Notes: generated from the sequence alone by a model not told the origin. 64,000 nt of DNA from Paractinoplanes bogorensis (GCF_018829635.1 NZ_JAHKKG010000003.1:62001-126000); one strand, 5' to 3'. Positions 22,083-24,624 are shown, counted from the stretch's first letter. Program-made: numbers and translations.

Positions 22083-22640
22083 ATGGCTATTCAGGAACGT
22101 CGTGAGCGCGCCCGGCAGGAGCGGGAACGACTGATCGTCGACGCCGCCCGCGAGCTGGCCGAGGCCGAGGGCTGGGACGCGGTGACCACCCGGAGGCTGG
22201 CCGAGCGGATCGAATACAGCCAGCCGGTGCTCTACAGCCACTTCAAGGGCAAGGACGCCATCATGGCCGCGGTCGCCGTCGACGGCTTCGCCGAGCTGGC
22301 GGCCGAGTTGCGGGCGGCCCGGGGTGCCGCCGCCGATCCGCTGACGGGGGTGGCCACGGCCTATCTGGCGTTCGCCGAGACCCGGCCGGTGCTCTACGAG
22401 GCCATGTTCACCCACAGCGTCGACCTGGCCTTCGCGCGGCCGGACACGCCGGCCGCGCTGCAGGCGGGCTTCGGTGAACTGCGCGAGGCGGTGCGGCCCC
22501 GGGCCGGCGACGACGATCCGGCCGTACTCACCGAGGTCTTCTGGGCCGCGCTGCACGGGCTGGCCACCCTGACCCGCGGCGGCCGGCTGCCCCGCGAGAT
22601 CCAGGAGCAGCGTCTGGCCCTGCTGCTGGCCCGGTTCTAA
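22083..22640 (+). CDS. TetR-family transcriptional regulator (DUF4267 partner)
   Basis: 185 residues from ATG 22083 (MAIQERRERARQERERL). The N-terminal DNA-binding domain is complete: IVDAARELAEAEGWDAVTT, then RRLAERIEYSQPVLYSHF and KGKDAIMAAVAVDGF. The C-terminal domain is ligand-binding, ending IQEQRLALLLARF. It is divergent from the DUF4267 gene across the CTAGC operator cluster, so autorepression and repression of its neighbour are likely. Its last 4 nt overlap the convergent HD-kinase gene. Confidence 0.9.
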   Translation: MAIQERRERARQERERLIVDAARELAEAEGWDAVTTRRLAERIEYSQPVLYSHFKGKDAIMAAVAVDGFAELAAELRAARGAAADPLTGVATAYLAFAETRPVLYEAMFTHSVDLAFARPDTPAALQAGFGELREAVRPRAGDDDPAVLTEVFWAALHGLATLTRGGRLPREIQEQRLALLLARF

Positions 22641-23764
22641 CCCAGGTGGACGGCGTGGGCCTCGGTCACGTCGGGTGACTCCCACTTGCCGATCAGGCGG
22701 TGGATGACCGCGGGCGGCACCGGCGCGGGACGGCCCCCGTTCTGGCGCAGCAGCGTCTGCGGCGGCACCTCGAGCGCGACGATCTCGACCCGGGCGTGAT
22801 AGGCCGCGCCCAGCCCGATGCACAGGTCGCGATGCTGGCGCGAGATGTTGGTGGCGTTCCAGACGAAGTCGCGGCGGGCCCGCAGATGCACCCGCGCCTC
22901 CTCGTGCGCGGCGGCGGCGACCGCCCGCTGACCGTCGGACGGTTTGACGCCGAGCCGGTCGCGGATGACGTCCAGGCTGATCACCGGTTGGTCTTCGGCG
23001 TGCGCGGCCACCCAGGTGTCCTTGCCCGCGCCGGGCAGACCGGAGAGCACGGTCATCGTCAGGCGAGTGTCGTCGTAGGCGGCGTAGCGGGGGTCACGTC
23101 CCGGCGTACGGAAATATTGGAACCGGGCGTGGTCGGACGCGAAGGGCCAAGGCCGGTCGAGCACTCCGAGGTCCGCGCAGAACTCGCGGAACAACTCGAT
23201 GTTGCCCAGCACGTCGTCCCGGTCGCCGCAGATCCGGCCGGTGATGTCGGCGTCGGCCAGCATGGCCAGATCGCGGTTGCTCGCCAGCAGGCTCACCCGC
23301 AGCACGATCTGCTCGAGGTCGGGCCGTTCGAGGGCCCAGAACGGCACCTGATGATGCCGGACCAGCGCCGCCACATGCTCCCGCCAGGCCCGGGGCGCAC
23401 CGAGTTCCCACAGGATCCGGCGTACGGTCAGGTCGCCCCGCCGGGAGTGACCGTGCGCGGTGATCCGGCCGTCGTCGTCGGTGCGGGTGCAGTCCGGTTT
23501 GGCCACGTCGTGCAGCAGCACGGCCCCGAACAGCCGCACCCGCTCGGCCGGCGGAAGCGCCCGCCACGCCGGTTGCGTGGCGAGGGCCTCGGCCGCCATC
23601 CGGGTATGCGTGGCCACGTCGCCCTCGCCGTGGTGCACCGGGTCTTGCGGAACCCCGCGCAGCCGCCGGATCCACTCGAACTCCTCCTCGACCCGCGCCC
23701 ACGGCACCGTCCACGACGGACCGTCCGGGCACAGTTCGGCGAAGAGCGTCCAGTCAGATCGCAT
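22637..23764 (-). CDS. HD-Pnk: HD phosphoesterase fused to 5'-OH polynucleotide kinase
   Basis: 375 residues. The N-terminal half is an HD phosphohydrolase: VATHTRMAAEAL, LFGAVLLHDVAKPDC (the HD pair) and AHGHSRRG, then VRHHQVPFW. The C-terminal half is a P-loop kinase with Walker A GLPGAGKDTW, SLDVIRDRLG, FVWNATNISRQHRDL and the lid-like ALEVPPQTLLRQN. This order matches HD-Pnk, described for Runella slithyformis as a bifunctional end-healing enzyme that removes 2',3'-cyclic or 2'/3'-phosphates and phosphorylates 5'-OH ends. The ligase gene upstream overlaps it by 11 nt, so healing and sealing enzymes are made together. Confidence 0.88.
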   Translation of the reverse strand: MRSDWTLFAELCPDGPSWTVPWARVEEEFEWIRRLRGVPQDPVHHGEGDVATHTRMAAEALATQPAWRALPPAERVRLFGAVLLHDVAKPDCTRTDDDGRITAHGHSRRGDLTVRRILWELGAPRAWREHVAALVRHHQVPFWALERPDLEQIVLRVSLLASNRDLAMLADADITGRICGDRDDVLGNIELFREFCADLGVLDRPWPFASDHARFQYFRTPGRDPRYAAYDDTRLTMTVLSGLPGAGKDTWVAAHAEDQPVISLDVIRDRLGVKPSDGQRAVAAAAHEEARVHLRARRDFVWNATNISRQHRDLCIGLGAAYHARVEIVALEVPPQTLLRQNGGRPAPVPPAVIHRLIGKWESPDVTEAHAVHLG

Positions 23765-24536
23765 ACATCACCGCCGGGTCGGCCAGCCGGTTGGGCACGA
23801 TCGGGCGGTCGGCCCAGTGCGAGCCGGAGTCGAGGACGGCCTGGAGAAACCCGGCCCGCACCCACTTGTAGCGCCCGGCCACGCGTCCGCCGGCTTCGTC
23901 CTTGAGGTAGAGGCCTTCCATGTCGTCACCCGGGTCGGTCTCGGCGACAGCGCGATCGGGGTCGACACCGGCCCGCGAGGCACTGGCCCGCAACGTGTCG
24001 CGCCAGGCGGCCGTGCGCACGGTCGACGGCCCGACCAGTCCGGTCAGCTCCCCGAGCGTGGCCACGGGACCGGTCCGCAGCACCGGAACGCTGACCACCG
24101 GCGTGTCCGCCAGCATGGCGTGGCGGGTCGGCGTGTCGAGAAACGTGCCGCTCGACAGGTCGAGAATGTCGAACTCGCAGAAGTAGTGCGGCAGCGCGTC
24201 GTAGAACACCGTGTGCTTGGCATAGAGCCACTCGCCGTAGAGCACGAACCGCGCTCCCAGCACCGGCCACAGGATCGGCGCGACCAGGTGGGCCCACGAC
24301 TTGAACGGCGCGAACTGGCGCTCCCGCGGCCCACCGGTCAGAAAATGCCCCCGCGACTGCAGCCGCAACTCGCCCTCGTCGGTGAAGCTGATCGCCGCGT
24401 TGGCGCCGTCCAGCTTCTCCTCGACCACCAGATGCCGCCCCGCGAGCTCGGCGAACGGCGTCTGCGACAGATCCTCGTCCCCCGGCTGCAGGCGCGACCC
24501 GGCCAGATGCGGAGTCCGGGGATACTTGGTGATCAC
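23754..24536 (-). CDS. ATP-dependent RNA ligase family protein
   Basis: 260 residues, GTG start. The nucleotidyltransferase motifs are in order: motif I EEKLDGANA (the AMP-accepting Lys), SRGHFLTGG, motif III VLYGEWLYAKHT, CEFDILDL, motif IV MEGLYLKDE and motif V YKWVRAGF. The length and YGEWLYAKH fit the small RNA-ligase-type enzymes rather than LigD or LigA DNA ligases, which have extra domains. It precedes and overlaps the HD-Pnk gene, forming a complete nucleic-acid repair unit: kinase and phosphatase heal the ends and this enzyme seals them. RNA rather than DNA as substrate is inferred from the family. Confidence 0.88.
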   Translation of the reverse strand: MITKYPRTPHLAGSRLQPGDEDLSQTPFAELAGRHLVVEEKLDGANAAISFTDEGELRLQSRGHFLTGGPRERQFAPFKSWAHLVAPILWPVLGARFVLYGEWLYAKHTVFYDALPHYFCEFDILDLSSGTFLDTPTRHAMLADTPVVSVPVLRTGPVATLGELTGLVGPSTVRTAAWRDTLRASASRAGVDPDRAVAETDPGDDMEGLYLKDEAGGRVAGRYKWVRAGFLQAVLDSGSHWADRPIVPNRLADPAVMYAI

Positions 24537-24624
24537 CCGACTTTTGTACCCGCCGACGCTCGCCGGAGCGACCGATTTTGGCTCATGGTGGCCGGCTCGA
24601 ACCGGCTACGGGAGTATGGCCCGC

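Follow-up and report, generated by a model that had tools for sequence, protein, structure and literature searches.

An RNA ligase and HD-Pnk gene pair behind a putative WblC/WhiB7-type promoter in Paractinoplanes bogorensis and other actinobacteria

RNA that is cut by a metal-independent RNase carries 2',3'-cyclic phosphate and 5'-OH ends. A gene pair in the soil actinobacterium Paractinoplanes bogorensis, an ATP-dependent RNA ligase gene followed by an HD-Pnk gene, raises the question of whether the two proteins mend such ends and what induces their production. The heal-and-seal chemistry via lysyl-AMP is established for these enzyme families. The pair lies in what we call the window, the whole 64,000-nucleotide stretch of DNA that was analysed (GCF_018829635.1 NZ_JAHKKG010000003.1:62001-126000), and positions are counted from its first nucleotide.

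The operon and its two enzymes

23754-24536, minus strand: ligase gene, first in the operon; ATP-dependent RNA ligase (PF09414) with a nucleotidyltransferase domain only, 260 aa
22637-23764, minus strand: HD-Pnk gene, second in the operon; N-terminal HD phosphoesterase and C-terminal P-loop 5'-OH polynucleotide kinase, 375 aa
23165-23707, minus strand: HD phosphoesterase domain, residues ~20-200, with H53, H85, D86, H106 and D173; boundaries approximate
22640-23065, minus strand: polynucleotide kinase domain, residues 234-375, with the P-loop GLPGAGKDT, D265, R268 and R345

A preliminary description of this DNA proposed a two-gene cassette with an 11-nt overlap, and the coordinates bear this out. 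Both open reading frames are intact, the upstream ligase has a GTG start codon, and the overlap spans 23754-23764. Each gene occurs in a single copy in the 10.2 Mb genome. The pair is flanked by a TetR gene (22083-22640, plus strand), a DUF4267 gene and a divergent DUF1232 gene, in agreement with the earlier statement that no toxin, RtcB or Hen1 gene is adjacent, and no methyltransferase gene adjoins the pair in the window. ARAGORN detected no tRNA in the window. Before the ligase gene (~24586-24607), a hairpin that resembles a T-arm and carries ACCA is missing in relatives and was therefore judged a chance structure.

The ligase belongs to the RNA_ligase family (PF09414, E = 3.5e-33). It had been described as having all nucleotidyltransferase motifs, and indeed I (EKLDG, K41), Ia-like (R62), III (E102), IIIa (D126), IV (E207) and V (K224) could be located. 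They are near-invariant, with K41, D43, G44, R62, E102 and D126 present in all 75 homologues and E207 and K224 in 74 of them. An AlphaFold2 model based on an alignment of the locus proteins (pLDDT 92.8) consists of a single nucleotidyltransferase domain and a short tail. Its top neighbours in the PDB are an archaeal RNA ligase, Naegleria gruberi Rnl, T4 Rnl2 and Trypanosoma editing ligase 1 (TM-scores ~0.5). Rank 29 is held by an Aquifex entry labelled 'putative DNA ligase', and DNA ligases whose function is known come lower still. The modelled fold is RNA-ligase-like.

The second gene was said to join an HD phosphoesterase to a 5'-OH kinase, and both domains are recovered by Pfam and by fold. 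The kinase matches AAA_33 (E = 2.9e-20), and the HD match is marginally below the gathering cut-off (E = 2.7e-4). The HD-Pnk model, obtained in the same way (pLDDT 95.3), aligns in its kinase part with the kinases of Clostridium thermocellum Pnkp, mammalian PNKP and T4 Pnk, and profile and fold searches both relate the HD part to the HD domain of the CCA-adding enzyme. Loss of the HD residues among orthologues, which the preliminary description had named as a finding that would speak against its reading, was not seen. H45, H53, H85 and D86 are kept in 78 of 79 homologues, and H106, D173, R177, G247, K248, D265, R268 and R345 in all 79.

Two features of the HD-Pnk family deserve mention. The kinase P-loop ends in GKD rather than GKS/T (residues 248-249, window 23018-23023), and D249 is kept in 77 of the 79 homologues; an effect on nucleotide or metal use is possible. 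Furthermore, H138 of the HD domain (23351-23353) is replaced by Gly in 15 of 79 homologues and by Ser in one, so this residue is not an essential metal ligand family-wide.

The architecture is shared with the HD-Pnk of Runella slithyformis, with the activity of the window's protein being a prediction. Munir and Shuman, writing on the Runella enzyme in 2017, reportedly noted an operon with a putative ATP-dependent ligase for the family. The Runella HD-Pnk is also said to act on DNA ends as well as on RNA ends, which would suit a function in DNA repair. The heal-and-seal reading is supported by the window's pair: no domain or catalytic residue is missing, the modelled ligase folds like an RNA ligase, and the two genes are genetically coupled; activity is predicted on this basis.

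Pairing and distribution across genomes

We surveyed 80 HD-Pnk loci of a genome collection, from Actinomycetota, Cyanobacteriota, Myxococcota, Acidobacteriota, Chloroflexota and Pseudomonadota. A ligase gene adjoins HD-Pnk in 76 of the 80 and is directly upstream on the same strand in 71 of these 76. The other five are Polyangiaceae (L074, L076, L079, L082 and L083) in which a shorter, ~29% identical ligase is encoded divergently on the opposite strand. The order ligase then HD-Pnk also occurs on megaplasmids of Pseudomonas, Variovorax, Bosea and Sphaerospermopsis. Over 69 loci, ligase and HD-Pnk distance matrices are highly correlated (0.959), and the HD-Pnks of actinobacteria group in a single supported clade. 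The closest named relative is Paractinoplanes lichenicola, with an HD-Pnk that is 88% identical. An intact adjacent pair is found in 7 of 37 genomes of the genus. This conservation within the genus and across the surveyed loci excludes a chance pairing. The pair is rare and clustered at higher ranks, occurring in 4 of 299 sampled genomes of the order and 9 of 395 of the class, with eight of the nine in one genus. The patchy occurrence and strong linkage suit an accessory stress function.

The neighbour survey that the preliminary description called for identified the ligase as the usual partner. No other gene, toxin or otherwise, consistently adjoins the pair in actinobacteria, and recurrent neighbour clusters are mostly restricted to Actinomadura or Nocardiopsis. 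The description had also implied that the coupling of HD-Pnk to a ligase is novel. We rejected this, as the pairing is near-universal in this HD-Pnk clade and on record for Deinococcus radiodurans (PMC1997131). There, DRB0100-DRB0099-DRB0098 encode a ligase, a macro-domain PARG and HD-Pnk, and were published in 2007 as a putative, radiation-induced repair operon (PMC1997131) that was discussed again in 2025 (PMC11833690). The two operons are alike in the order of ligase and HD-Pnk, in domain architecture and in having a ligase with only a nucleotidyltransferase domain. They differ in that the window lacks a macro-domain gene, and the proteins are ~30% identical. The D. radiodurans operon is induced by radiation, whereas that of the window has a WblC-like promoter.

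The Deinococcus operon was first proposed to function in DNA-break repair, and the window's unit could likewise heal and seal DNA nicks. Gamma irradiation strongly raises expression of the D. radiodurans operon, whose HD-Pnk heals and seals DNA nicks in combination with LigA; the operon's ligase homologue self-adenylated and sealed neither DNA nor RNA in vitro (PMC1997131). Because this ligase sealed nothing, a DNA substrate is the main rival on the enzymatic side. However, the domain and fold of the window's ligase are of the RNA-ligase type. Its promoter region, treated below, argues in the same direction, and we consider DNA-break repair improbable.

The pair also resembles the Pnkp1-Rnl-Hen1 system, with which it shares the logic of a kinase, a phosphatase and a ligase. 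Rnl and Pnkp1 are co-translated with Rnl first, as the ligase is first in the window. The Pnkp1-Rnl-Hen1 phosphatase is not known to be an HD domain. The system includes the Hen1 methylase, which the window lacks, although outside the actinobacteria a gene for a Hen1-like methylase comes before the pair in eight loci from Acidobacteriota, Myxococcota and Alphaproteobacteria. In these, a SAM methyltransferase gene is directly upstream of the ligase (L077:3559-4197, L107:3506-4189, L111:3565-4206 and L113:3383-4111; also L078, L080, L100 and L110). The closest PDB sequence matches of the methyltransferase include 3jwi and 3jwg, which we take to be bacterial Hen1. A unit of Hen1-like methylase, ligase and HD-Pnk would, by analogy, parallel Pnkp1-Rnl-Hen1. 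In Variovorax, a small hypothetical gene lies between ligase and HD-Pnk (L031:4576-4920) and could encode an accessory component, like the Deinococcus macro-domain gene.

HD-Pnk homologues also occur in giant phage-like genomes, namely a 597-kb viral contig (L026) and a 462-kb phage (L035, LR756500.1). The latter additionally encodes a ligase homologue (~28% identity).

The unit might serve to undo the damage of specific tRNA-cleaving toxins or of anticodon nucleases triggered by phage, as proposed for Pnkp1-Rnl-Hen1; the preliminary description had likewise suggested a possible answer to RNA-cleaving toxins. Once reconstituted, the Pnkp1-Rnl-Hen1 complex repairs tRNA that a ribotoxin has cut (PMC4411300), and both the homologues on giant phage-like contigs and the patchy distribution in actinobacteria are in keeping with such a role. 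It is opposed by the lack of any consistently adjacent toxin or defence gene and by PADLOC, which matched neither the ligase nor HD-Pnk and led us to reject a defence-system label. We view the unit as rather unlikely to serve as a counter-weapon, a role that is compatible with control by translation stress and not exclusive of it.

A conserved putative promoter block before the ligase

The gene pairing is already known, and the new element here is a conserved promoter block. It emerged when the sequences preceding the ligase start codon in actinobacterial loci were aligned, and is absent from the preliminary description. In the window, it comprises the following elements.

24575-24580, minus strand: AT-rich box CAAAAT of a putative WblC/WhiB7-type promoter; consensus GAAAWY, one mismatch
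24572-24574, minus strand: conserved CGG between the AT-rich box and the -35
24566-24571, minus strand: putative -35 TCGCTC, a weak match to TKGMNN with one mismatch in TKGM
24543-24548, minus strand: putative -10 TACAAA, separated by 17 nt from the -35 and by 6 nt from the GTG start codon

The window's promoter thus reads CAAAAT-CGG-TCGCTC-N17-TACAAA-6 nt-GTG, with a good box, a fair -10 and a poor -35. Across 46 actinobacterial loci the block is AAAWY-CGG-T(T/G)G-N17/18-TANAA (consensus GAAAAC/T-CGG-T(T/G)G-N17/18-TANAAC). The spacer between -35 and -10 is 17 or 18 nt in all 46, and in 40 of them 6-7 nt separate the -10 from the start codon. With a distance of 3-8 nt between the block and the start codon of the ligase, a leaderless transcript is predicted. 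Mean pairwise identity among the 46 loci is 0.64 for the box, 0.67 for the three following nucleotides, 0.68 for the -35 and 0.82 for the -10. These values are higher than those of the 45 nt upstream (0.32) and of the spacer (0.38), so conservation of the block exceeds what kinship alone would give.

The WblC-activated promoter of Streptomyces coelicolor is GAAAWY-N3-TKGMNN-N16-19-TANNNT, with transcription starting 7-8 nt downstream of the -10 (PMC7157823), and M. abscessus promoters have the same layout of an AT-rich box and 3 nt (PMC10727445). Judged by sequence, the cassette block broadly matches this published WblC/WhiB7-activated architecture of AT-rich box, 3 nt, -35, 16-19 nt, -10 and near-leaderless start (PMC7157823, PMC10727445). 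The GAAAWY box, 3 nt and TKGM -35 are well matched in Nocardiopsis and largely so in Actinomadura. Scored against the published consensus, 39 of 47 actinobacterial cassettes reach at least 10 of 13, versus 5 of 218 other genes in the same loci (Fisher P = 3e-33, uncorrected for kinship). The same threshold is reached by 7 of 42 non-actinobacterial cassettes. The block was also present in 8 of 8 extra genomes that were outside motif discovery, which are Nocardiopsis by sequence, a genus shared with seven discovery loci, and hence not fully independent.

No LexA or PafBC sites were detected in 48 actinobacterial upstream regions. We rejected SOS/LexA and PafBC control, and this result, along with the resemblance of the promoter to that of the translation-stress regulon, further argues against DNA-break repair.

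The match to the WblC consensus is imperfect. The cassette -10 is TANAAC or TANAAA and lacks the final T of the published TANNNT. The CGG that follows the box is conserved to the same degree as the box itself, yet stands outside the published consensus. The strict pattern including CGG has the cassette as its sole exact match in the window's genome. Among 12 other genomes it matches in four, and in each the cassette is again the sole exact site. When one mismatch is allowed, scattered sites appear across 41 genomes of the genus. A clear box was not found in these genomes upstream of hflX, a WblC target in Streptomyces. Because of the extra CGG, and because the strict pattern finds the cassette alone and no regulon, another activator may be at work. 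A different activator using the cassette box is the main rival on the regulatory side: an RNA repair unit could be driven by a non-WhiB7 activator recognising AAAAYCGGTTGG, or by a constitutive housekeeping-sigma promoter. The CGG, the uniqueness of the strict pattern in each of the four genomes and the incomplete -10 are points in its favour. Against this, the box 3 nt before the -35, the 17/18-nt spacer and the leaderless start are those of published WblC promoters, and whiB7's own promoters in the cassette genomes share the layout (AT-rich box, 3 nt, TTG, 17-18 nt, TANNNT). We regard control by another activator or by a constitutive promoter as rather unlikely.

Other upstream sequences were observed beside the actinobacterial block. 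Rhodobacteraceae/Roseobacteraceae cassettes (L094, L102, L106, L109 and L115) carry their own conserved block ~110 nt before the ligase, ..TTTTGTGCGACCAATCGATACATCGTGAGACCGTT-ATG, which is unlike the actinobacterial one. Nostocales-type cyanobacterial cassettes (L081, L086, L089, L098 and L104) have another common upstream block, TTATTTGATTGC..CAAGGTAGAAAAGTC-ATG. Genome G035, an eighth one of the genus, contains a degraded cassette (L009, C2:410434-410821) with an internal deletion that leaves one open reading frame and an intact promoter block. In this remnant, the first ~46-49 ligase residues are in frame with HD-Pnk from about residue 305, and the fusion joins EEKLDGAN of the ligase to ISRQH of HD-Pnk.

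Regulation and proposed function

A WhiB7 orthologue is encoded by all 23 genomes searched, each with a cassette or a remnant (11/11 and 12/12), including that of the window, whose WhiB7 has the AT-hook KRPRGRPRK. We infer that WhiB7 is the regulator of the cassette. In S. coelicolor, tRNA-processing enzymes, tRNAs and ribosome rescue factors already belong to the WblC regulon (PMC7157823). Rather than a toxin, the conserved promoter sequence suggests the WblC/WhiB7 response to translation stress as the trigger. We found no report in the open-licence literature that links RNA end-healing to WhiB7 or lists an RNA end-healing or RNA-ligase gene as a WblC/WhiB7 regulon member, although this does not prove that there is none. 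RtcAB/RtcR is likewise a stress-regulated RNA repair operon (PMC7790460), the regulation of the window's operon being putative, but its ligase (RtcB) is unrelated, and its sealing chemistry and regulator also differ.

We propose, with moderate confidence, that the pair constitutes a two-protein RNA heal-and-seal unit that is expressed from a leaderless WblC/WhiB7-type promoter upon translation stress and is not a dedicated antitoxin. In vivo it would presumably act on RNA breaks that leave a 5'-OH on one side and a 2',3'-cyclic phosphate or 3'-phosphate on the other. Clearing of the 3' end would fall to the HD domain, and phosphorylation of the 5' end to the kinase domain. The ligase is predicted to self-adenylate on K41, pass AMP to the 5'-phosphate and seal the break. 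The overlapping genes, ligase first, would coordinate production of the two proteins. Since the promoter appears to be of the leaderless WblC/WhiB7 type, the actinomycete operon is most probably induced together with the translation-stress regulon, in response to ribosome-targeting antibiotics or stalled translation. The targets are likely tRNA or rRNA, and their repair may keep translation going.

Little is known about what most bacterial RNA repair systems act on in vivo or what triggers them, as noted for Pnkp1-Rnl-Hen1 (PMC4411300), and a conserved, recognisable promoter suggests a concrete trigger. More broadly, RNA end-healing and sealing could form one arm of the ribosome-stress response of actinomycetes under WhiB7/WblC. 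A translation block would then induce the HD-Pnk/ligase unit, which would mend tRNA or rRNA that breaks while translation is stalled, aiding intrinsic tolerance to ribosome-targeting antibiotics. To our minds this idea has an even chance of being correct. If true, RNA repair would be linked to the intrinsic antibiotic tolerance of actinomycetes, a group in which many members themselves produce ribosome-targeting drugs.
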